A stretch of DNA of 64,000 nucleotides from Struthio camelus (Eukaryota > Chordata > Aves > Struthioniformes > Struthionidae): positions 200,810,747-200,874,746 of the forward strand of contig NC_090942.1 in assembly GCF_040807025.1 (NCBI RefSeq). Reading direction: 5' to 3'. Positions 1,401-60,700 of the stretch are shown here, in pieces (position 1 is the first letter of the stretch; each line of letters opens with the position of its first letter). Position numbers and translations under genes: made by a program. The notes under the pieces were generated by a model. The model did no database searches. It was not told the DNA's origin and saw only the letters and a program-made list of their open reading frames with translations.

Positions 1401-4325
1401 ACGAATCGCCCAGTCAACAGAGACACAAAGCATAGGTGCACCTTGGGCCACATGAATCAGGGCTCTTTGGTCTGCTCTACCCCTTCTGCCCTGATACTCC
1501 AGCGTTAAAAAACAGCCACAGGCAGTGACTGGCAGCGAACAGACAACCCTGCTGCAGCACTTCTGCAGCCGTCACCCACGCAACTCACTTTGCAGTTCTC
1601 CTCCCCAAGCTTGCACTCGGCCTGAGCTGTTTGTTGCCTGCTGCCTTTGTGAAGCTTTTGAAATTAATGCTTTAAAGCCTCTAAAAGCAGCTCACAAGGA
1701 AAAAAAATGGCAGTTTTACATTTCTAAAAAGATGTTCCCATTCCACTCACAGCTGAGTTTTGACTGCAGCCTGTGAGCAGAATAGTAAATGGGAGCTTTT
1801 GTTGTATTTTCCCAGGCCAGTTTGTCCAGGTAGTTGAGAGCCACATTTGTCCCTGTTTGGTTTTGGCTGCAGATAGGTCTCTAGGAAGTCACCTCCTTGG
1901 TGGAGGGCAGCCTGTGCATGCATGCATCCAGGAGAGCCAACTCACAGGACTCAGCCCTTCAAGCTGGGCTGAGTCCTTTTGCCCCGCTCTGAGGACAGAG
2001 AAGGTCCAACCTTTCCCCAGGTGCTTACTGCCCTTCTTCTGTCCTTCTCTTATCCTTCACTAGCCAGGTGTCTATATCTATCTGTCTCTACAACGTGCCT
2101 CGCAACTCCAGCCCCAGGCTGGACTCAAGCACCTTTGGCTGGAGTCGTGCCAGTACAAATACACGTTTCTGCGAGCTGAACACAGTCTCCCAGTTTTCTA
2201 GCTGTACCTTAGAGAAGAATTTAGTCTACACTAACAAGACAGTGCACGCTAACTGATTTCAAAGAGATTCATCCCAGAAGTGTCAAACTGATTATACACT
2301 TCTCAAAGGAGTAATCCAGCCTCCAGAGAGCAAAATCAGCTTTCAGGTAAGCAGCTGTGAATCCTGGAAAAATCTGAATTAATACAAAAGCAAGTTAATC
2401 TGAAGTTTCAGGCCTTGGTCACACAGATCACAATGACACCCCAAATCAGACGAAATTTCTACTTTAAACAAAGATTTTCCTATGAGCAGTGAAGTAAATA
2501 GCACTTGGTTCGTCAAGCTTTGCATTGCCTCTTAGTTCCCCCACAATCACCCCCGCCGTCCTTTGTCTCCTTCAACAGACTCCTCACACAGCATCAAAGC
2601 CCCCCGTCACCATGTCCCCTCTGTCTCTCCCGTGTCCTCAATAGGTGCTGTCCAACAGCACCTTTTCCCATCTACATCCTTTCCTTCACTGCAGTACTCC
2701 TTCATCCTTTCCCATCCCCTGCACGTCCCTTCGGCCAGCTGGCTTGGCAAAATGCAGCACGCACTGCACCTGATCTGATAATATGTATGTGGCAACTGGG
2801 CAGCCCATACACGTGCACCACCTGGTCAACTGGCTGAACTCTTTTGCCTGAAGGAACCATAAATTTAAGGGTGTCTCCTCTATTTAATAACTGATTTTCA
2901 CAAAGCTTGTAGGAATATATAAATATATCCAGTTAATATAAATATGCGGTATCTCTGAGCACACTATCTCTCTGCCAAATTGGGCTGAAGCGTCAACGAG
3001 AATGAAACTGTACTGAGAGACTGTGCAGAAAGACTGATGGACATGCAGACAAAATGACCACATGAGCTTTTTTCTTTAGGAAAGCATGAAAAAAAAGGGT
3101 AAAATCTGTGTTTGCCCTGATGAATTCCTATTAGATTTAATTAAATTCTATTTTCAAATCTCAGTTCTTTATTTTGCATTAGAATAAGGCACAAAACCAC
3201 TGTACTCTTATGGATTAATTTTGAAGAAAAGATTGGCAGAAGATAGGCTATTCTGTATAGACATATGAGAAATCCTACTGAACATTTTTAATTGAATAGT
3301 TTTCAGAAAGATTTAAAATGTTTCCTAATCTTTGCATTTCAAGAAGCTGAATGAGAACTTCTTGGTGGAGCTATCCATGGAGAGCATTTTGTAGTTTGTG
3401 CTTCTTTACTGAACTGGGGGGAAAAAGTCGAAGAACTAGTATCATGTGCTATACACTAAAAAATGTTGAAGGGAGATGATCATGACTGTTAAGGGTGTTT
3501 GGCTCCGATCATCTTTAGTGGTGGATGAAAAAGAAAACAAGATCACCTTGGGAAAAAATACCTACAAAGCAGTCTGATTGTAATGCTTCCAATGAAACAC
3601 TGCTCTTGGCAAGTTACTTTGCAGAAAGAAAAAAAGAAAGCACCTCCTCTGTCCCTAACGCATATTTTTTTTACATTTACAAATTATTTTTGACTTAGCC
3701 AAGCAGGGAGCTTACTTTCAACCCTCAATTTGAAAATCATAGAGGCTTTATAAAGTCTTCCACCTGCATCTCTTTTTTGCATCACAGTTCTTTATCCTCT
3801 AAAGGATGAAAACCCTGGCATATAAAAACTTTGTTAAGCTGTCACTATCAATGGAGTAAGAAAAAATAATGCTTGACAAAGAAGAAACAAATTGCATCTT
3901 CGAATAAGTTTCCTTCATGCTCTTGTTAAAAGCTATAACCTCTGATGTTAACAAAATTTAACCCATTCTGACCCTTGCGGTGGCCCTTAACCTTTTCTTT
4001 ATTCTGCTTCCTGTGGTTGCTGAAGAAAACTGGCCGGGCCATTGGGAAAGCCTTCTCTGTGGCACACAAAGGCTCGGCCGGGCTGCGAGGCTGTCGGGAG
4101 GGACAGAATAGACGGGGAGGTCAGCACCTGTGCTGAGAAGCAGGTGACAGGGAACTGCCGGGACCATTCGAGGGCAAGTTGTAATAGTTTCTACCCTTTA
4201 AATATCTCACTGTAGTTTCGGGTATTCAAGGCAGCGAAGTTCACGTTTTCTTTGTGAATGCAGACTTTAAACAAATTAATCTATTGCTGTTCAACTGACT
4301 GTAAAATTAGTAGATTTACTGTTGC

Positions 4326-8645: not shown

Positions 8646-8689
8646 TGAGAAACCCATGCGCCCACAAACACATGGACGCACGGATCACA

Positions 8690-8895
8690 CACACACACAA
8701 GGATACACATGCACCAGGATACACATACCACACACACAGGGATACACATGCACCAGGATACACACATACACAGCGCTACACACACCCCGGAAGACACACA
8801 AAAACGCACACACTGGGATACACACGCACACATACTGGGATACACATGCACCACGATACACACACAGGGATACACACGCAGCAGGATAGACTCAC

Positions 8896-8931
<36 letters not shown>

Positions 8932-9130
8932 GGATACAACACATGCACCTGGATAGAGACAGACAGCGATACACACACACTGGAATACACACACATACAG
9001 GGATACACATGCACCACGATACACACGCACCAGGGCAGACACACCAGGACCAGGACAGACACACACACACACACAGGGATACACATGCACCGGGATACAC
9101 ACGCGCACACACGCACACACACAGAGGGAT
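8690..9130 (+). repeat. Minisatellite with 'gatacacatgcacca' core
   Basis: Tandem units are built around 'ggatacacatgcaccaggat' and 'gggatacacatgcaccacga', separated by (CA)n of variable length. The core recurs about every 20-40 bases from 8700 to 9110 (for example near 8700, 8740, 8840, 9000 and 9080). The monomer differs from that of the array at 9.6-13.1 kb. It contains a pure (CA) stretch near 8900-8928. The minus strand is G/T-rich and gives long Cys/Val frames that are artefacts. Confidence 0.85.
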
Positions 9131-9171
9131 GCAGGCGCACGCGCAGATGCTGGCAGAGGCGCACCCGCAGC

Positions 9172-9262
9172 GGGGGGGGGGAGGAGGAAGAGGAGGAGGA
9201 GGAAGGCGAGCAGGAGGAGGAAGGGGAGGGGCAGGAGGAGGAGGAGGAGGAGGAAGGGGAGG
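9172..9262 (+). repeat. Polypurine GGA/GAG tract upstream of the putative first exon
   Basis: A run of ten G (9172-9181) is followed by about 80 bases of nearly pure purine, mostly GGA, GAGGAGGA and GGGGA words with only three interrupting C. Such tracts can form triplex (H-DNA) or G-quadruplex structures and often sit just upstream of CpG-island promoters. Here it lies directly between the CA-rich minisatellite and the CpG island. Confidence 0.85.
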
Positions 9263-9580
9263 TGGCGGAGGCAGCGGAGGCTCCGCCTTTGCGGGCGCCC
9301 GGGCCGCTCGCTCGGCTGCTCCGGCGCCGCTGGGGCCCTGGCTCAGCCCGGCCGGTGGCGGCCGAGCCGGCAGGTAAGAGCGGCCCCGCGCCGCCGCCTC
9401 GGGCCGGGCCCGCCCGGGCGGGCAGCGGCAGCGGCAGCGGCAGCGGGAGGGGGCGGGCGGGGCGGCGGGCGGGCGGGCCGGGCCCGGGGCGGCCGCGGAG
9501 GCCCAAACGGGCCGCGCTCAGGGGGGCGCCGCCAGGCGCGGGGCCGCCTGTGCTCACGGGGGCACACCGGACCCACAGCA
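9263..9580 (+). promoter_or_regulatory. CpG island, probable MTIF3 promoter
   Basis: The segment is very GC-rich with dense CpG (ggcggccgagccgg, ggccgcgg, gggcggg and similar). It carries GGGCGGG SP1-type boxes near 9450-9480 and no TATA box. It is the only dense island on the left side of MTIF3, and MTIF3 coding begins in an exon with an acceptor directly before its ATG, so an upstream non-coding exon is required. The island contains a good splice donor. Assignment to MTIF3 is inference from order and strand. Confidence 0.6.
9280..9373 (+). other. MTIF3: Putative non-coding first exon of MTIF3 (start uncertain)
   Basis: Inside the CpG island the sequence 'gagccggcag|gtaagagcgg' gives a near-consensus donor at 9373/9374. 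The 5' limit cannot be read; 9280 is a guess at the left of the non-purine GC-rich block. If correct, it splices to the acceptor at 16679-16680, ten bases before the MTIF3 ATG, and the 90-bp minisatellite lies in intron 1. It could instead belong to a separate lncRNA. Confidence 0.45.
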
Positions 9581-12500
9581 GGTCACGCAGTGTCGGGAGT
9601 CACCCCGCCCGCGGTTACACACAGCCACGCACGCGCACGCACTCCAGGTCGCACAGCCGCACGCAGGGTCACACACGCTCACCCCCTGCCACACACGCAC
9701 ACACCGTCACCCCCACCACGCACGCACACATGCCCCAGGTCGCACAGGCGCACGCAGGGTCACACACGCTCACCCCCTCCTGCCACGCACGCACACACAC
9801 ACCGTCACCCCCACCACGCACACACACATGCCCCAGGTCGCACAGGCGCACGCAGGGTCACACACGCTCACCCCCTGCCACACACGCACACACCGTCACC
9901 CCCACCACGCACACACACACGCCCAGGTCGCACAGCCGCACGCAGGGTCACACACACTCACCCCCTGCCACACACGCACACACACACCGTCACCCCCACC
10001 ACGCACGCGCACGCACTCCAGGTCGCACAGCCGCACGCAGGGTCACACACACTCACCCCCTGCCACACACGCACACACCGTCACCCCCACCACGCACACA
10101 CACACGCCCCAGGTCGCACAGCCGCACGCAGGGTCACACACGCTCACCCCCTGCCACACACGCACACACCGTCACCCCCACCACGCACGCACACACGCCC
10201 AGGTCGCACAGCCGCACGCAGGGTCACACACGCTCACCCCCTGCCACACACGCACACACCGTCACCCCCACCACGCACGCACACACGCCCAGGTCGCACA
10301 GCCGCACGCAGGGTCACACACGCTCACCCCCTGCCACACACGCACACACACACCGTCACCCCCACCACGCACGCACACACGCCCCGGGTCGCACAGGCGC
10401 ACGCAGGGTCACACACGCTCACCCCCTGCCACACACGCACACACACACCGTCACCCCCACCACGCACGCACACACGCCCAGGTCGCACAGCCGCACGCAG
10501 GGTCACACACGCTCACCCCCTGCCACACACGCACACACCGTCACCCCCACCACGCACACACACATGCCCCAGGTCGCACAGCCGCACGCAGGGTCACACA
10601 CGCTCACCCCCTGCCACACACGCACACACCGTCACCCCCACCATGCACACACACACGCCCCAGGTCGCACAGCCGCACGCAGGGTCACACACGCTCACCC
10701 CCTGCCACACACGCACACACACACCGTCACCCCCACCACGCACGCACACACACCCCGGGTCGCACAGCCGCACGCAGGGTCACACACGCTCACCCCCTGC
10801 CACACACACACACCGTCACCCCCACCACGCACGCACACACGCCCAGGTCGCACAGCCGCACGCAGGGTCACACACGCTCACCCCCTGCCACACACGCACA
10901 CACACACCGTCACCCCCACCACGCACGCACACACGCCCCGGGTCGCACAGGCGCACGCAGGGTCACACACGCTCACCCCCTGCCACACACGCACACACAC
11001 ACCGTCACCCCCACCACGCACGCACACATGCCTCAGGTCGCACAGCCGCACGCAGGGTCACACACACTCACCCCCTGCCACACACGCACACACACACGCC
11101 CAGGTCGCACAGCCGCACGCAGGGTCACACACACTCACCCCCTGCCACACACGCACACACACACCGTCACCCCCACCACGCACGCGCACGCACTCCAGGT
11201 CGCACAGCCGCACGCAGGGTCACACACACTCACCCCCTGCCACACACGCACACACCGTCACCCCCACCACGCACACACACACGCCCCAGGTCGCACAGCC
11301 GCACGCAGGGTCACACACGCTCACCCCCTGCCACACACGCACACACCGTCACCCCCACCACGCACGCACACACGCCCAGGTCGCACAGCCGCACGCAGGG
11401 TCACACACGCTCACCCCCTGCCACACACGCACACACCGTCACCCCCACCACGCACGCACACACGCCCAGGTCGCACAGCCGCACGCAGGGTCACACACGC
11501 TCACCCCCTGCCACACACGCACACACCGTCACCCCCACCACGCACGCACACACGCCCAGGTCGCACAGCCGCACGCAGGGTCACACACGCTCACCCCCTG
11601 CCACACACGCACACACACACCGTCACCCCCACCACGCACGCACACACGCCCCGGGTCGCACAGGCGCACGCAGGGTCACACACGCTCACCCCCTGCCACA
11701 CACGCACACACACACCGTCACCCCCACCACGCACGCACACACGCCCAGGTCGCACAGCCGCACGCAGGGTCACACACGCTCACCCCCTGCCACACACGCA
11801 CACACCGTCACCCCCACCACGCACACACACATGCCCCAGGTCGCACAGCCGCACGCAGGGTCACACACGCTCACCCCCTGCCACACACGCACACACCGTC
11901 ACCCCCACCATGCACACACACACGCCCCAGGTCGCACAGCCGCACGCAGGGTCACACACGCTCACCCCCTGCCACACACGCACACACACACCGTCACCCC
12001 CACCACGCACGCACACACACCCCGGGTCGCACAGCCGCACGCAGGGTCACACACGCTCACCCCCTGCCACACACACACACCGTCACCCCCACCACGCACG
12101 CACACACGCCCAGGTCGCACAGCCGCACGCAGGGTCACACACGCTCACCCCCTGCCACACACGCACACACACACCGTCACCCCCACCACGCACGCACACA
12201 CGCCCCGGGTCGCACAGCCGCACGCAGGGTCACACACGCTCACCCCCTGCCACACACGCACACACACACCGTCACCCCCACCACGCACGCACACACGCCC
12301 AGGTCGCACAGGCGCACGCAGGGTCACACACGCTCACCCCCTGCCACACACGCACACACCGTCACCCCCACCACGCACACACACATGCCCCAGGTCGCAC
12401 AGCCGCACGCAGGGTCACACACGCTCACCCCCTGCCACACACGCACACACCGTCACCCCCACCATGCACACACACACGCCCCAGGTCGCACAGCCGCACG

Positions 12501-13110
12501 CAGGGTCACACACGCTCACCCCCTGCCACACACGCACACACACACCGTCACCCCCACCACGCACGCACACACACCCCGGGTCGCACAGCCGCACGCAGGG
12601 TCACACACGCTCACCCCCTGCCACACACACACACCGTCACCCCCACCACGCACGCACACACGCCCAGGTCGCACAGCCGCACGCAGGGTCACACACGCTC
12701 ACCCCCTGCCACACACGCACACACACACCGTCACCCCCACCACGCACGCACACACACCCCGGGTCGCACAGCCGCACGCAGGGTCACACACGCTCACCCC
12801 CTGCCACACACGCACACACACACCGTCACCCCCACCACGCACGCACACACGCCCAGGTCGCACAGCCGCACGCAGGGTCACACACGCTCACCCCCTGCCA
12901 CACACACACACACACACACACACACACCGTCACCCCCACCACGCACACACACACGCCCCGGGTCGCACAGGCGCACGCAGGGTCACACACACTCACCCCC
13001 TCCTGCCACGCACGCACACGCACATACCGTCACCCCCACCACGCACACACACACGCCCCAGGTCGCACAGGCGCACGCAGGGTCACACACACTCACCCCC
13101 TGCCATACAG
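9581..13110 (+). repeat. Large GC/CA-rich minisatellite, about 38 monomers of about 90 bp
   Basis: The monomer contains 'aggtcgcacagccgcacgca', then 'gggtcacacacgctcacccc', 'ctgccacacacgcacacacc' and 'gtcacccccaccacgcacgc'. I counted about 38 copies of the 'ggtcgcaca' anchor between 9646 and 13060. Spacing is mostly 88-98 bp, with a modal value of 90 and one short unit of about 66 bp near 11035-11101. Length changes come mainly from the (CA)n slots. Variant monomers (cccgggtcgc, catgccccagg, atgcacacacac, gcgcacgcactcc) recur in the same order, giving higher-order repeats. Sequences at 11591, 12145 and 12699 repeat at 554 bp, and the block at 10324 recurs at 11591 (1267 bp). Every monomer carries several CpG. 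Confidence 0.95.
11591..12881 (+). repeat. Higher-order repeat of six monomers (554 bp)
   Basis: Within the minisatellite, equivalent segments begin at 11591, 12145 and 12699, exactly 554 bp apart. The order of variant monomers is the same in each: a cccgggtcgc unit, a short cccaggtcgc unit, a catgccccagg unit, an atgcacacac unit, an acaccccggg unit and a unit with a shortened CA slot. This indicates recent unequal exchange or block duplication of a six-monomer unit. Confidence 0.8.
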
Positions 13111-13725
13111 ACATACACACAGAGTCACTCCCACGGCGCACACCCCCACACACATTGTTACCCCCTCATACACACACAGCCACAGACCCTCACACACACA
13201 AACAGAGTCACCTCCCCCCACACCCTCCAGGTCACACAGCCACCCTCCCCTACCCACATGGCCGTACCAGGTCAGACAGGCGTGCGTGTGTGCACACACG
13301 TGTGCACACACACAGTCAGCCCTCCCCCTGCACAGTCATGTACTCACACGTGTGGTCACATGCACACGCATGCACAGTCAGCCTCCTCTCCCCACGCACA
13401 CCCCCCCGGTCATGTAATTGCACACACAGTCACCCCTCCCACACATAACGCACACATGGTCACCCCCCCGTACACACATGGCCACGCCTACACATGCACA
13501 CCCGGTCACACAGCCACACGCATGGTCACACACCCGCCCACGCACACACACGCGTGCAGGTCTCGTGGCCACACACAGTCACAGCCTCCCTCACCCCCAC
13601 CCCCAGGTCACTCGGCCAAACACGCGTGGGTTTACAGGCATACACACGTCAGGTCACAGGTGCACACCCACACAGTCACACCCGCATGCACTCCCCCCCC
13701 CTATTCACACACGCAATTAAAATAG
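13111..13725 (+). repeat. Degenerate CA-rich right flank of the minisatellite
   Basis: The C/A bias continues with words such as 'cacacacagtcacc', 'cacatggtcac' and 'ccaggtcaca', but without an exact period. It ends abruptly near 13710, where ordinary AT-containing sequence starts. It probably represents old diverged monomers at the array edge. Confidence 0.75.
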
Positions 13726-16680
13726 CGTCTTTTTGGCATGGGAATACATGATGCACGCATGGGAACATACACGCTAGCTGCACATACAAGGCGCAAAACG
13801 TCTTGTAAGGCACGCGCGGAGCTGTAGCCGCCGGAGCGCTTCCCGCGCAGCAGGACGGCCCTGCTCCTGCAGCTCTCCACACACCTGCGGCCTGCCTCAC
13901 CCCTGCAACGCCTGCCCCAGACGCCTTTCCTAGCTAGCCTACGGGCCGCGACAGCCATAGAAATGCACAAAGCAAAATACACTTCCATAGCAAGTTATGT
14001 GAAGAAAAAGCATCCCATAAAAGGTGTCTGGAAAGAAAAAAAAAAGGCCAACGGAGGCAGGATTTAGTAGATCTAAAGAGGAACAAATAACGAAGGAGGA
14101 TAAAAGTGAAAATGCACGTTTGGCAGAGGATGAGTAACGTCACTTTAAAATACACTACTATTCCACTGCTGTGATACTGTTAACTGAGTTTAAGTAGTCA
14201 GTAACTGAGAAAGACCAAGGCCGGGTTCATATGAATGTAAGATAAATTTGATGACAGTATGTTATGAGATACCAAAGTCCTGCCTGGATTATGGTCTCTG
14301 CTAGCTGCAGCTGGGTTATGAAACCATATTAAAAATAAGGACTTCTCAGCTTTTATTTGGCTATGCTGATGATGTGCAAAGATTCTGGCATTTTGGCAAT
14401 GGTTGCTAAGTTCAGCTGTAAGGAAGTCACCACGGTAGAGAAAAGGCTGTTTCCCAGGGCCCTGGTTCTGGTCCGGGACGCAGCAGAAGCAGGACCCACG
14501 GCAGGAAGGGACTCCAGCTCCACCAGCTGCTTTTTAGGCTCTAGCATGAATATCCTGGTATTTCTCTTCTGTGCTCTTGTGGCTGGTTGAGTTCAGGGTC
14601 CTGCTAGAGCACATAGCCAAGTCAGACAGTCCTATCGGTGGACTAATTCAGCGCTGTCTTAAAGTACTTTGCACTGGCTTTGTCCCTCTTGTTAGAATTG
14701 GAAGCCTGTCCCAGACTCCAGAATTTGCCTGTTTCCAGACTAAGCTTATTCACAGGGAGGCTAGTTCACTTGTTCCTGTGCCAACTTTGCTTTTAATTAT
14801 AAATAGTTCCTTCTGCTTCCTGATTGTTTGCACCTTCCCCGCATATATTTACATATTATATATATGTACATGTATACATATTTACAGTCATATATGTATG
14901 TATGTATATATTTGTAGAACGCACTCATATTCCTTCCTAAGCAAAAAAATAACACTCTTGCCAACTCACGTGGTAAGATACGCTCTCAGTTTCCTCTGTC
15001 ATCTTCACCTTTCTCTGTACTTGCTGCCTTTTAAACATGGGATACCAAAGCTGCAGATAATACTCCTCAGTTTGCTCTTTATTTGTAAAGTTCTTGCACC
15101 TGTGAAAGAAGAGGTATTTTGGGGGTCTCGAAGCAAGTAAGAATAACGGTCAGGAGCACCAGAACTGCCAGGCGAATTCCATGAAGCAGAGAGGAATAGG
15201 GAAAAAATGCTAATGGAGGAAAAAATATCTCAAAGATCAGTTCCCTTGGTCTTCAAATATCAGGCACCCAGTGCATTTCCAGGCCTGTTTGGGAATTATA
15301 TAGCTTCATGACCACTGTGCCAGGTAGCTTCCTGTATAACAATTTATTTAAATTTTAATTTGCAAGTGGGGGGGTTTTAGGCATATAACTCTGTTGCTTG
15401 TTTTTCATTCCAAATATTGCAGAAAAGTCTTACCTATGCTTATATTTTTCTCTTCTTTCTGCAAGCTTTTTTTCAGCGACATTCTAACAGAAGAAAAATA
15501 ATCAAAATCAGTGTTTTTACCAGATGGTTTTGGTGAAACGTCTACAATAAATAGCAATTTCCAGACAATGATTTGTAGTTGCATGCATTGTGTGTAAGAA
15601 ATCTACATAGTTTTGAAAACTGGAAAAAAATCAGTTTATTGTAAATAAGATTATGCTTCTTAATTTCATGTTTGAAAATTTGAAAAAACTATTTTAAATT
15701 TCTGATAAAATAGGTTTAAAATTAAGGCATTACTTTAGCTCTGAAGCGTGGCTGAATCTGGAATTTCTTTGCATGTAGAGAGAGCAGAAACTTTTTTTTT
15801 TGGTTACTGAAATAGCATTGGTGCATAATCCATATGAAACCAAGTAGCTGGATTACTTACATGAAATGGTGTTTGGGAAACTTGTAGTTTGAGAAAAAGA
15901 AAACTATTTGGGGTCAGTGCTATGAGAAGCAAGTTGCATGCAAGCTATGCAAGATAAAAAGTATTTTCAAGCACAATAACACTTACTTTGTCATATTTTA
16001 AGACCAAGGCAAAGGTTTTGCTTTGGGGCTCTTACTCTGCATGGCTTCGAAACTCTAAAACCTTACAAAGCATCGCAGAGTCAGACTGTGGCCTTTGGGG
16101 TGGCTGCTGGCAGACGCTGCGTAGGCTTCCTTCCCCCCGTCGCTACGGTCGGTCGAAGTCAGTGCAGCTGAGCGAAACACTTTCCAAAGAAGAGTACCAG
16201 AAACAGGAAGAAAGTACTAGCGTTACAGTTTCAGTCCAGATGTTTTCACAAAGTATATGTGACTTCAGAGGCGTGACATGCCTTTTTATTTGACAACAAA
16301 TCCCCCTCTCTTACCCACTGGTTAATCTCTGTATACACACGAGCTGTGTCAGAGAAGATACTCTTATGAGAAGAAATGAACCAGAAGTTTTGGATTCTCT
16401 GATGGAGTTCAGGCTCAGATTTTAAACTATTGAAGATAACATCAACTCTTCATAAATTTTGTTCTACTGCCAGATTGTCTCTCTGGGTTAAACCCTCTCT
16501 TTGCTATTGTAAAATTACTGATGACCGCTCAGTCCGTATACTTACAGTACATATCTTTGGAAAATAATTGCAAGAGTAGTTTTAAGGATTGGACTTCTCT
16601 GTACTGGAGTCAAGTCTTTGTAATAATCGTGGCTAGAAGAAATCAACTGATAGAGGTAACTTCCTTTTTCGTCTTCCCAG
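13726..16680 (+). other. Remainder of inferred MTIF3 intron 1, no coding content seen
   Basis: After the repeat domain the sequence returns to ordinary composition. A GC-moderate patch lies at 13800-13950, and a TA-rich microsatellite at 14840-14922. No recognisable exon was found. Additional 5' UTR exons of MTIF3 cannot be excluded. The stretch ends with a pyrimidine-rich tract and the acceptor AG at 16679-16680. Confidence 0.5.
14840..14922 (+). repeat. TA/TATG-rich microsatellite
   Basis: Runs such as 'catatatttacatattatat', 'atatgtacatgtatacatat' and 'atgtatgtatgtatatattt' form an AT-rich alternating purine-pyrimidine tract with TATG units. Confidence 0.8.
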
Positions 16681-16690
16681 CTCCTTCAGG

Positions 16691-17156
16691 ATGACTACCT
16701 TTTTTTGTCTGATGAAACTTTTACGTCAAGCAACCAGAAATGAGAACAGATTCACAAAAAGATTCTATGGCACTCTCTTAGCACAAACCCTCCAAAAGAG
16801 AGGCTTCTCTCAGTCCTCCATGGTGGTGCCTGACCCCAGAAAGACTACTGTGTTTGGACTTACTAAACCATTTTGTACAGCTGAAAAAACTGATAGAGAA
16901 CCAAAAAGAAAAGCAGCGTTTGGAAGCGTTGGGAGGAGAATTCCATATCGGATTTTGCATGTAATCAACCAGAACGGAGAGAGCTTAGGAAATATGCACC
17001 GAGCAGAGGCACTCAAACTTATGGATCAACATGACCTGAAGCTAGTTCTGCTTCGTGAGAATGCAGAACCTCCTGTATACAGACTAATGACCGGGAAGCA
17101 GATTCATGAAGAGCAGCTTAAACGTGCAGAGAAGAAAAAAGCAAGTCCAAAAACAG
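16691..17156 (+). CDS. MTIF3: MTIF3 coding exon 1 (presequence and IF3 N-domain)
   Basis: The acceptor 'cgtcttcccag' ends at 16680, so ten bases of 5' UTR precede the ATG. The exon encodes 155 full codons plus one base and ends at donor 'aaacag|gtacgt'. If unspliced, the frame would read on only to 17230. Confidence 0.93.
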
Positions 17157-20100
17157 GTACGTGCATTGTTAATATCATAACACTGAGCACTTTGAAAAAT
17201 GCTGTATTAAAAGTGGTTTCAGCAGATTAAATCCTCTTACTTGTATTTGTGTAAATCCAAAGCAATGTCATTGCAGTCTATGCTATTAAGGATTTGCAGT
17301 GGTGAAAATAAAATTTTGGATTAGTCTAGTCTTCTACACAGAAGCCTTCTTTTGCTTTCTCAGGATTTACTCTTTTGGCATCTGCTGTTGTGTTTTTTTT
17401 AATCTATTTTTATTTAAGAGAATATAACTAGATTCTGGTTCCATGCGACCCAGTGAGTTTCTGTTCTTTTATTAAGGCATAAAAAACAGGCAGTTTTAAC
17501 GAACTCTATGCACCAGATCCCCAAAATTTTATGTTGTCACCAGCATTCAGGAAACAGCCCAGTGCTAGGCAGAGAAAGTCTGGAGCCCTTGACAGCTGCT
17601 CATTTATAATGTTCTGAAGAGGCCTATTCTTTCATAGCATAGGAGAACAACTTCTTCAATATTAAAAACTTTTCAGTTTCATTTCTTAAATCACTCTGCT
17701 CCAGTGGTTTAACAAATTGAAAGTTTGGCAAGGAAGATTTAGAAAAGGCATCCAACCTTGTATCCTCTTTTCTTATCCTCAGGCTGAATAAGGTATCTGT
17801 GCTTTGCCTAGAGTTCTGATTTTAGAAGAGAGCTACTGTGGTAGTTTTTCTGTTCAAGAACCTACAAAAAGATTATTCACATATTAACTACTTCAGAGAA
17901 CCTTTAACAGAGGGGGACACCATAGCTTGTTCAAACATACTATGAGGCATCTTATTTCCAGCTGAACAGAGCATTTCACTGTTCTCGAAGATGTGCCTGA
18001 GAGATCTAATTTTAAAGCTTTCCTATTTAGCTACGTTATGTGCAAAATTTAGAATTCATACACTAAGTCTTATGCCCAGATCCACAAGGATGCTTTTATC
18101 TGTTTATCTTTGTTAGGCCTACGTTATGGGTGGTATGAACAAATCCACAATTAAAATAAAAATACTTTAAGCCTTCCAACCCTGGAGGGCTCTCCCTCTG
18201 CACCCCAAACACACAGTCAGGTTTTCCGTTGTGGCCATGACTGCAAGATGCCAGTTAGCCACCTTCTAAGGCAAGAGTGATGCATGCTGACTCAATGAGG
18301 TTGGGGTGCTCTATGTATGAGAAGGTAGCACGGAGAAAGGGAGGTAAGTAGGCAAAGCACCATAAGCTATTGAAAAAGAGCAACTAATAAAAGTTTGTCA
18401 GATGTTAAGCCAACACTGTTTTAGTTGTGTTTTAAACAGCGCTGGTTCAGAAGGAGTTATCCTTTTCTTCAACTATTGCCAAGAACGACCTCGAAACCAA
18501 GACTAAACAAATAGCACAGTGGATTGAGAAGAAATACCACGTTAAAGTTACCATCCGACAAACAAAAGATAGCAATACAGACATGGTAAGTGGACTCCTG
18601 AGAACTGGACCGACCAGTCAAGTGCATTAAATAGGTGTACCTGTGTTAGCTTTCCCCAGACAGTACTGCTTTCTTCTTTGAATATGTCACTCATTGCTAA
18701 AATGACAGAAGGTCTAGGACCAGGGAAAGTAATAGTTGCCCTAGCTGAAGCAGTTCTGGAAAAGCAGTCTCAGAGAGACAATCTGAGTAACGTGATCGTT
18801 TAAGAACGCAGTTACAACTATCGGCTTTGACAGCAAAGTCTAAGCAGTTCCTGTCCATTTGCTGCACCAGCTTATTAACTGGGCTGATGGAACTCTGCCA
18901 TCTATGTGTTAAGCCAGCTCACTCGCTGAGAAATACTGGTTTTAAAACCAGTAAAAAATGGTTTTAAAAGTTTACCAGTAAAGTTTAAAAAACATTCTGC
19001 TGTTTTACTTGGATTATTTTAATAACCTAACTGTTCTTCTGGAAAACACATCTGTGCAACAGTGGCATAGGTTAGTTTTCCACTGCTTTGTTGAAAGCTG
19101 CCAAAATACTGTATTCCAAGACTGTCAGAGTGCACATATCTATACAGATGTTGGGGAGGTGGTGGCTGCTTACCAGCTAAGGTAGTTTGCATGGCCTTGA
19201 GATTTGTCTTCATTGTCACCTACACAAACGTCTACTTCTAAAAATTCACTGCATAGGGTAATATTAAATTAAAAAAAAAATTCCTTTAATGTGTTTTTGT
19301 TGCAGTGAATTAATTGTCCTTGATTCTACTAAATTGCTGGAACAGATTTGTAGTGTCACTTCATATGAAGGGACTAAAACTTTTCTGTAAAAAGCTGAAT
19401 CTACAAGGAAAGGGGAGGAGGAAGAACTGGATATGGGAGGGAGTAGAACATATGCTACAGTCCACATTTAGGTTTCCCTTAATTTCATAATTAAAATAAA
19501 TAATGCATTGACAAGTCAGCTTGTTCTGTGGACGCACTGGTTCAGACAGCTCAATCCTATTCACTTTCTGCTAAATTTAGAACAATACTTCCCATTCAAA
19601 GGGCAAGAGACCATTAATAATATGACTGATTCTACTGAGAAAAGGTGAGGAGTGGGATGCAGGGTTGCAAGCACTTTTGCTGAAGTCTGTATACAGCAAA
19701 CAGAATGAATCAGGAAATAAGCCTAAAAGTTCAGAAAAGGCTTAATTGCTTTTCTACCCCTAGTTACAAGTAAAGAACAAATTGTTAGGACAAGTTGAAA
19801 TGCTCAAACCAGGACTAGCAGCTAGATGGCTTTACGTGATAACTGAGTCACAGGGAGGAGAGCATGTCATTACAGAGCAGCTTGAAATATTTTTCTGCCT
19901 GTGTTTGTGCATCTAGCTCTATTTTTTTTTTCTCCTTCTTTCAGTTTATGCTTTTTGATCAGATTTTGGAGACTGTGTCCGAGAAAGCCACTTATCTTTC
20001 CAAGCCAAAAGCTATTAAAGAAGGAGTGAGTACCTGTGTTTTGAGACACATGTCTGAAAAAGAGCTGAAAACACATCAGAAGTTGGAAAAACAAAAAAAC

Positions 20101-20157
20101 AGTATAACAAAGACAGATGAGAATGAAGCTCCAAAATCAAGTGAGTTCTATCCATGA
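16691..20157 (+). CDS. MTIF3: Mitochondrial translation initiation factor 3 (three coding exons)
   Basis: Coding exons are 16691-17156, 18440-18585 and 19945-20157. They join in frame to 275 codons (274 residues plus stop); from memory the human protein is about 278. Residues 1-43 are rich in Arg/Lys without acidic clusters ([13 protein letters not shown]), fitting a mitochondrial presequence. The IF3 N-domain is near residues 78-147 ([17 protein letters not shown], then a [14 protein letters not shown] helix region and a Lys-rich linker). The IF3 C-domain is near 157-240 ([19 protein letters not shown]). The tail is Lys/Glu-rich. In the family, the protein binds the small mitoribosomal subunit, keeps the subunits apart and helps position the start codon. 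The start was chosen because ATG follows the acceptor by ten bases and has A at -3. It is tail to tail with GTF3A. Confidence 0.95.
18440..18585 (+). CDS. MTIF3: MTIF3 coding exon 2 (start of IF3 C-domain)
   Basis: The acceptor 'gttttaaacag' is followed by codons for [17 protein letters not shown], then the [19 protein letters not shown] segment typical of the IF3 C-domain. The donor is 'gacatg|gtaagt', and the exon ends in phase 0. Confidence 0.92.
19945..20157 (+). CDS. MTIF3: MTIF3 last coding exon
   Basis: The acceptor 'ctccttctttcag' is followed by [18 protein letters not shown] and the [10 protein letters not shown] motif that closes the IF3 C-domain. A hydrophilic tail and a TGA stop at 20155-20157 follow. 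A donor-like 'caagtgagt' lies just before the stop, but the stop position agrees with the family length, so read-through to another exon is unlikely. Confidence 0.88.
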   Translation, partial: FMLFDQILETVSEKATYLSKPKAIKEGVSTCVLRHMSEKELKTHQKLEKQKNSITKTDENEAPKSSEFYP

Positions 20158-57753: not shown

Positions 57754-60700
57754 GGAATATCAATGGTGTCCTTTGATACAGTTGACTTAAGCAGGGATGA
57801 TCACGTCTCATGCTGCTTGGCTGAATTCTTTTTTTTTTTTTAATTCGCGTTTTTCTATCCTATGTTTTAATGGTTAAAACTCCTTCAAACTACAGAGGTG
57901 GCTCAAAAAGCCATGATTTTGCACCCCTGAGCACAGTGCTACACAGAGGTTCCCCGGACAGGACAGCCCGGCTGTCCGTCGCACCCTGCAGCTCTCTGGA
58001 GGAAGAGCGGAGGGACAGCCAACGTCACTGCTGCATTCACCTGACGCTGTCCCCGCTCCTGACGAACAGAAGTGATGTTGGCTTTTGCAGCCCCTAACAC
58101 ACACGGGAGAGAACGGCGGCTTTGGGACTCACAGGCAGCTCTCCCAAAAGCAGTCCACAGGCTGCCAACGTCAGCAGTGCTCCTGCGCTGCGACTGCGAC
58201 CGCTTCGACAGTGGCGCTGGCCTAAGGAGGGTGACTCCCTGCTCAGGCTGGGGCCAAAGCTGGTTTGTCACTCCCTCCACCGAATTTGTCCTGTGAGGAA
58301 AGGACTTGCTGAGCACTTTCCCATTTCTTTAGGCTGGAAGCTCCCAGTTTTGTTCAGGAAATATCGTTAGTTGGTAAAACGTGGAGTAGCAACATTCACC
58401 CAAAATGTCACCTGTGTGTAACAAAATCCCTTGGAAGGCCACGTCCAAAAGCGTTGTGGGCTGCAAATGGCCTGCTCCAGGCACCTGGGTGGCCTTAGAC
58501 AGGCTGCCCACTTCTCCCCACGTGCTACCTGCTCCCAGCGCCTGCTCCGGAGCAGCCGAAGAGCCTGGGGAGGCTCCTGGCGCCGTCGGCGAGCGCCGAG
58601 TGAAACCAGCAGGGAGGTCTCCCAAACACGTGGTGCCGAGCTGGTGCCCACGGGAGGGGAGAGCACGCCGGCGGGGCCAGCAGGGGCGAGGGGACCCGGG
58701 GGGGCGTTCAGGCATGGGAGCCCCGAGCACCCCCGTGCTCCGGTACGCGGTGTCCACCTGGCCGAGATGCCAGCGGGCGCCGGCGTGTCCGCTGGCCGTC
58801 CCTCACACCCGCACCTTCGCGAGAAGGCAGGTATTTACCGTCACGCAGGTGTCAGCCAAAGCTGCAGCCTTCTGTCGGACCACAGCAGCATCAAAACCAC
58901 AGAACAAGCCCAAACTGCCTCCTGATAAACGGCGCAAGGCATAAGCTTGGCTATGGCTAAATTTCTTGCAGCAAAAACCCAGGGGCTAAGCAGAATGCTT
59001 ATATTTAGAATTAATAATAGACACTTAGGGACTGGGTTTTGAGGGGATTGTAGGTTTTTGTTTTTAAACGTTTTATGGAAAGACTGAGCAAACACCATTA
59101 GCCAGTTCAGGGCTTATTAATAATTAAGCTGGATAACGCTGAGCTGCTTTCAATTGATTTTTGGAGGGAAAAAAAAACAAGCTGGAAGCTTTGTTTCCAT
59201 AAGATATGCGTTTAAAGAGGACTGATATGGGGCTGGCGATCTCAAGCCTTTATACCCTGGGAGGGAGCAGGAGTCCTTCGGCGCTGGCGGCTGCTCTGCC
59301 TCGGGGGACTGGAGGGTGACTGTCCACCGGGGACATCCGCAGCCCTGTCACCCCCATGGCAGGGGATGGAGGACAGAGCGATGGTCGAGACCAAATGAAG
59401 AGTCTTCTCTCGAGGGCATAATCCTGCTGGCGTGTTGCTCAGGGCCAGGCAGCAGCGCTGGCTGGGGCTCTTGGGGCTGTGCCGGTAGGAGCTGATAGAG
59501 ACGTTTCCTCCCTCTCAGGCTCCCTCCTTGCGGTGGCCGCTGCATGCAGCCCCTCAGCGTGCTCGCCAGCATCGCTCAGAGGAGTTTCCACATTTGGCCC
59601 ATCTCCTCCAAAGCCAAAATGCCCCCCGCTTACTCGGGCGCACGCCGCGAAGGCGGTGTCCTGCGTGTTTGTCCTGTGTGTTTTGGGTATGTTTTCTCTC
59701 GGTACGTGGTGCAGGGGTGACATCTGCCGACCGGTGGCTCTGTGGCTGTGGCAGCGTGGCTGCGACCCCGCGCTGCTGCACTGATGTGTAATGTTATTAC
59801 TGCTCAACCTGCTTATGGTCTTTCGATAGCCCTGCGTTTTCCACAGGAAAAATGAAAAACAGCGCCAAGAGTAAAATTGTCAAGGCTTTTTGTGGACTCT
59901 GCTTAAGTTAGCATTAACCAATGACTTTTAAAGTACAGGATTCGTTTCTATTATTAATTCTTTCAGCAGGTATCTTTTGTTTCCTTTTCTTTTTTTATGA
60001 CTCTAAATAAAACTGTGTCAATAAAACAATACCTGAGATTGTATGCTGTCATAACGTCTCGTTTACCTGTCCCAAGGTAAAAGTCAATAAACCTTTTATA
60101 ATTGTATGAAGAATGTATTTGCCATATCAGGATATTTCTCCGGTTTTTGACAAGAGGCCCAGAATTGTTTTTCAAGTAGAGCAGTGTATATTTGTAGGAA
60201 ATCTTTAAACTTGAGTGGAGATTTACCCGCCTGTAATTAAGATTAGATTCTCGATCTGTTTTCTTTCACTGAAAATTCACAACCAATCCAAAGCAATTAA
60301 ATACATGAAAAAAACCAGTGACGTCTTCTTCATAGAAAGACGCAGCTGCTGGTCTTAGGATTTCTTCTAAATGGTCATTTCTCTAATGTTTTTTTACCTT
60401 TGGAAGCATGGAAGGTAAAGCTAATAAAAAGCTGTGTTACCATGCCTAACTGCCTCTAGAAAAGAGAATAATAATTAATCCAAGAAATAATAAGCAAAAA
60501 GTAAATATTTGGATTCTCTGAAAGAGCAAGCAGTTCCAGGCTGGTGATTTCTGATTTGACGCAATACTCTAGTCCTGTAGTCAAGCTTCAGGGAGTAACA
60601 CTTGGATCCATCCTCAGCAAATTGCCTTGGCTGGACATGGTTCACTCAGTGCGTGGATATAGGCATAGACCCGCTAGAAGTCTGTAACTGTAGCAGTATT

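Follow-up and report, generated by a model that had tools for sequence, protein, structure and literature searches.

We have found that 3.5 kb of the Struthio camelus genome, within the 64,000-nt window considered here (the whole stretch of DNA that was analysed, on contig C1 at 200.8 Mb), is a minisatellite at a single locus, a known sort of repeat and a mechanistically ordinary one, whose unit variants recur in a nested order. With a probability of about 85%, this minisatellite, which probably lies in the first intron of MTIF3, has grown from an older CA-rich tract through the recurrent duplication of multi-unit blocks.

Array and nested order of its units

Tandem Repeats Finder (TRF) reported 9625-13118 as a single tandem array (period 276, 88% match), and two further rows of 95 bp jointly span 9625-13109 with 92% and 91% match. 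The original prediction, which had proposed this check, placed the repeat at 9581..13110; the array itself stands, but according to the TRF boundary positions 9581-9624 are flank. A core word of 29 bases occurs 38 times, first at 9648 and last at 13062, and neighbouring words are 67-105 bp apart (n=37), with 33 of the 37 spacings between 88 and 95 bp, in agreement with the predicted number (about 38) and length (about 90 bp) of the monomers. With 38 core words at these spacings the array is a minisatellite, a term that PMC8096271 defines by tandemly repeated units whose length ranges from 7 up to several hundred bp. The coordinates of the features are collected in Table 1.

Table 1. Features of the array and its surroundings (positions in the window).
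Feature	Position	Strand	Basis or remark
CpG island, probable promoter and exon 1	9180..9560 (boundaries ours)	.	GC 0.82, CpG observed/expected 0.87
Putative MTIF3 intron 1	9374..16680	+	donor-like CAG|GTAAGAG at 9373/9374; acceptor-like CAG ends at 16680 or 16689
Minisatellite array, 38 core words, units of ~90 bp, C+A-rich on +	9625..13118	.	TRF and unit map
Large duplicated block, first copy, 1045 bp	9906..10950	+	exact matches
Short 67-bp unit at start of second block region, 28 bp less than 95-bp types	11037..11103	+	unit map
Large duplicated block, second copy, 1135 bp; differs only by one added 90-bp unit	11083..12217	+	
Six-unit higher-order repeat, 554 bp	11655..12208	+	unit map and comparison
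Following six-unit higher-order repeat, 554 bp	12209..12762	+	3 differences from 11655..12208
Old decayed unit copy in 3' flank	13421..13553	+	local alignment score 91; maximum 70 in 200 randomised controls
MTIF3 orthologue, first coding exon, IF3_N domain	16691..17155	+	one match in genome search

The whole array comprises 19 exact unit types with the terminal unit counted, although this final unit is diverged and was cut at an arbitrary length, and one of the 19 types is therefore partly flank. Their order is 0 1 2 / 3 4 5 5 6 7 8 9 10 11 6 / 12 13 / 3 4 5 5 5 6 7 8 9 10 11 6 / 14 15 9 10 11 10 14 16 17 18, where the slashes are our own block marks. This arrangement is not random, as had been claimed: the longest repeated run of unit types is 9, a length that 10,000 shuffles of the unit order never approached beyond 5, and 10 repeated triplets were observed where the same number of shuffles gave a mean of 0.06 and a maximum of 3. 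Furthermore, all three units at either end are singletons, of which there are 9 among the 38 units (hypergeometric P 3e-5, with the choice of three per end made post hoc and the terminal unit partly flank), as expected where exchange homogenises the middle of an array, the usual polarity of exchange.

The variant-order map that had been suggested revealed both a six-unit period and a large block duplication. Positions 11591, 12145 and 12699, described as equivalent and 554 bp apart, do fall at the same places in units 22, 28 and 34. Neighbouring six-unit stretches differ at only 3 positions in 554 bp whereas single units match each other at 91-92%, which makes the longer period a higher-order repeat; a perfect match of 443 bp is seen both at lag 554 and at lag 1821, and an identity of 222 bp at lag 554 connects 10253-10474 with 10807-11028. 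As regards the large duplication, 843 bp (10108-10950) are identical at lag 1267, and position 10324, from which a block had been said to recur at that distance, lies inside them. The recurrence of the preceding flank also held, at a lag of 1177 rather than about 1179 bp (444-bp identity, 9906-10349). The difference between the two lags, 1267 - 1177 = 90, corresponds to the one extra monomer that had been predicted between the copies: when one 90-bp unit is removed from 11083-12217, it is identical to 9906-10950, with 0 differences in 1045 bp. Each of the large blocks contains one complete run of six units together with the opening unit of the run that follows.

Genomic setting, CpG content and other arrays

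The open frame that contains the exon at 16691-17155 matches IF3_N (Pfam, E 8e-20) and a solved mitochondrial IF-3 (E 1.5e-27), with the ATG of the MTIF3 orthologue at 16691 preceded by acceptor-like CAG sites. Further downstream we found an IF3_C fragment at 18484-18573 (E 8e-5, under the curated cut-off) and no IF-3 match in the piece 19843-20154. On the minus strand, a zinc-finger sequence at 20.8-21.2 kb matches TFIIIA (E 1e-10) along with numerous further zinc-finger proteins, several of them scoring higher, and we take it to be GTF3A only because this gene is a neighbour of MTIF3. With a CpG island carrying a donor-like site upstream and the first MTIF3 coding exon downstream, the array is probably located in MTIF3 intron 1. 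Directly upstream of the probable exon 1 there is a (GGA)n purine tract (9180-9271). On the opposite side of the CpG island, 8680-9160 is a second CA-rich tandem tract, far more degraded and with a 16-bp-like unit, ACACACACAGGGATAC, so that the probable promoter has CA-rich repeats on either side; a relationship of this tract to the 90-bp unit is unsupported (score 41, control maximum 48). Elsewhere in the window, 58000-60000 is also GC-rich (GC 0.56, CpG observed/expected 0.65) and gave no Pfam match in the two open frames scanned.

The ratio of observed to expected CpG is 1.01 in the array (9640-13100) versus 0.61 in its 3' flank (13100-13730). CpG transitions account for 6 of the 8 interior single-base variable sites (P 0.0017 against 20 CpG columns in 94), a count read by hand in which two of the six are both sides of one CpG and the direction of change is taken from the majority base. 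It omits the composite tail of type 3, changes in CA length, variants private to the outer three units at each end, one unparsed unit, and one CpG site that can equally be read as a 2-bp deletion. In the decayed copy of the 3' flank, the core word at 13505 shows 3 mismatches to the 29-base word of the array, of which two are CpG-to-CpA changes. The CpG transitions suggest germ-line methylation of the array, and we read the CpG data as decay through methylation that recent copying has offset. The high CpG density would thus most likely come from recent homogenisation or amplification, and not from protection against methylation; protection by the adjoining promoter in particular is disfavoured by the spectrum of CpG transitions.

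We searched a genome of 1,451,902,618 bases in 262 contigs. Allowing up to 3 mismatches, the core word gave 39 matches, all at the locus (38 exact, plus one next to the array that has 3 mismatches), and the reversed-pattern control gave 0 matches in the genome; at 1.45 Gb, the minisatellite is hence confined to one locus and a dispersed satellite is rejected. With a 220-bp array query there were at least 52 alignments in the genome, 36 at the locus and 16 elsewhere at 69-80% identity. A query from the 3' flank (13180-13730) gave 16 matches: its own position, five places within the array, and ten on contigs C16 and C204 with 67-75% identity. All 16 off-locus alignments of the array query are covered by eleven genome stretches, eight of which hold arrays with units of at least 12 bp according to TRF (some being merely CA/CG-type repeats); the other three (L009, L010 and L019) gave no TRF array at the threshold used. 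One of the eleven, L014, carries an array of 36 bp x 41. Another, L015, situated at ~1.34 Mb on contig C1, contains at 1721-2685 an independent CA/CG-rich minisatellite of 87 bp x 11 with 97% match. Ordered runs of at least three types were absent from the three L014/L015 arrays divisible into units (which number 9, 26 and 16, giving little power), and a fourth was not divisible; these arrays thus give no support for such order as a general feature of this genome.

We also sampled seven contigs at round-number positions, taking 20 stretches of 10 kb each, which amounts to 200 kb and is too small for an estimate of how frequent arrays of this length are. They have a GC content of 0.436, a CpG observed/expected ratio of 0.37 and 7 CR1-like end motifs (0 in the 64,000-nt window), and none of the 20 contains a TRF row with a unit of at least 15 bp that reaches 1 kb. 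One of the 20, L037 on contig C14, has a minisatellite at 3565-4219 with nested TRF periods of ~46, 75, 120, 195 and 270 bp. Minisatellites in general, and nested periods, thus occur elsewhere in this genome too.

Growth of the array and alternative readings

The starting point would be an older CA-rich, CpG-bearing tract, which would have grown by repeated multi-unit block copying, through either unequal exchange or gene conversion when copies were misaligned. The six-unit block of 554 bp was probably the first to be copied; next, a block of ~1.2 kb would have been copied, bringing the six-unit pattern along; and last, one 90-bp unit may have been gained or lost, unless the difference was already present between the parental copies. 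That the six-unit pattern probably predates the large duplication is indicated by the full six-unit run inside each block and by the 222-bp identity at lag 554, which begins within the first block. Both this order of events and the exchange mechanism are what we infer from the present array, which would have no needed function.

In simulations, from which arrays of 33-43 units with 15-23 types were retained, block events produced an ordered run of 9 in 2/331, 23/221, 13/119 and 10/38 cases at mean blocks of 2, 4, 6 and 10 units, respectively, and in 48 of 709 (run of at least 9) when mean blocks 2-10 were pooled, so under this simple model block copying makes such a run possible rather than typical. 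A separate simulation with other filters pointed in the same direction, with few arrays kept at large blocks (0/1 at mean block 10). As the model separates block from single-unit copying only and does not distinguish crossing-over from conversion, the earlier proposal of unequal exchange or block duplication is upheld for the copying of several units at once, but not for crossing-over in preference to gene conversion or replication-based copying.

It is possible that the perfect 1.1-kb block (0 differences in 1045 bp) is a false duplication of the assembly. The structure would then be in part an artefact, in which the end-to-end joining involved two alleles that differ by a single 90-bp unit, or a single stretch that was read twice, and the fact that the block copies are identical save for one whole unit is what VNTR alleles would give. 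However, the six-unit period is also present with base differences (3 in 554 bp), and the 222-bp identity at lag 554 joins 10253-10474 and 10807-11028, so that the higher-order structure is independent of the large duplication. Moreover, the assembly looks long-read (262 contigs, one of 225 Mb), and long-read assemblies normally span arrays of 3.5 kb. We consider an artefact unlikely.

A function in the regulation of MTIF3, in which CpG methylation, Z-DNA-prone tracts or protein binding would make the array a kept element whose copy number tunes expression, seems to us more doubtful still. It would fit the start of the array ~65 bp from the edge of the CpG island as we drew it, the 74 alternating CA/CG/TG tracts of at least 12 bp that cover 36% of the array versus 0.1% of 13731-64000, and the reported activity in a reporter assay of the human CFAP410 intron-1 VNTR (PMC9484465). 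On the other hand, such tracts are a direct consequence of the CA/CG composition, and the germ-line methylation suggested above also argues against this function. With regard to other structures, there was no G-quadruplex motif with runs of three or more G and loops up to 12 on either strand of the array, weaker two-G motifs numbered 38 on its minus strand, and the window gave 0 Rfam matches at the gathering score and 0 tRNAs. It is very improbable, though conceivable, that a promoter-proximal, germline-methylated array changes in copy number by six or twelve units, producing stepwise alleles that would alter MTIF3 expression and so mitochondrial translation.

Growth solely by one-unit replication slippage is compatible with the runs of a same type (type 5 twice and three times) but hardly credible, since none of the 242 arrays kept under single-unit gain and loss contained an ordered run of 9, nor one as short as 5. 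Our results support that the nested order of units requires events that copy several units together, and that slippage of one unit alone does not fit. A coding array is rejected as well: all three plus-strand frames are open across 8890-13725 (stop-to-stop frames of 1356-1611 codons) because the repeat unit has no stop codons, and the one frame scanned (9378-13448) has no Pfam match. Neither is this a centromeric satellite, as it measures only 3.5 kb and has a CpG island on one side and a coding exon on the other, nor of viral or contaminant origin, the core word having 0 exact matches in viral_contigs.

Comparison with known systems and significance

Centromeric alpha satellite has higher-order repeats, and the array resembles it in that its multi-unit period is more alike than its single units; unlike alpha satellite, it is a single 3.5-kb locus with a 90-bp unit and only about three higher-order copies. 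The other arrays of the same genome, in L014, L015 and L037, are likewise GC-rich minisatellites, with units of 36-87 bp and, in L037, nested periods, but all are shorter than the array at the MTIF3 locus. Human minisatellites such as MSY1 are also made of tandem units with variant types arranged in ordered blocks, and conversion-like change has been proposed for them; the length mutants directly seen there are small (1-3 units), in contrast to copied blocks that here would be of 6 and ~12 units (PMC2599865). The VNTRs of CFAP410 (PMC9484465) and DPYSL4 (PMC8096271) occupy intron 1, the position that the array probably has; they are reported to be polymorphic with an effect in a reporter or a correlation with expression, whereas the array is known from one assembly. 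A narrow literature search found no paper pairing the words MTIF3 and minisatellite.

The array has a further consequence for genome annotation. Its composition would pass the usual thresholds for CpG islands (island and array together, 9180-13118, have a GC content of 0.70 and a CpG observed/expected ratio of 0.92), and this, combined with the long open frames in the three forward frames, makes it a trap in which automatic pipelines could annotate a spurious gene or an island stretched to 3.9 kb. Length polymorphism of the array is a fair prediction from the one assembly, and if polymorphic it would be a good marker. In any case, the array clearly records how blocks were duplicated at a single locus.
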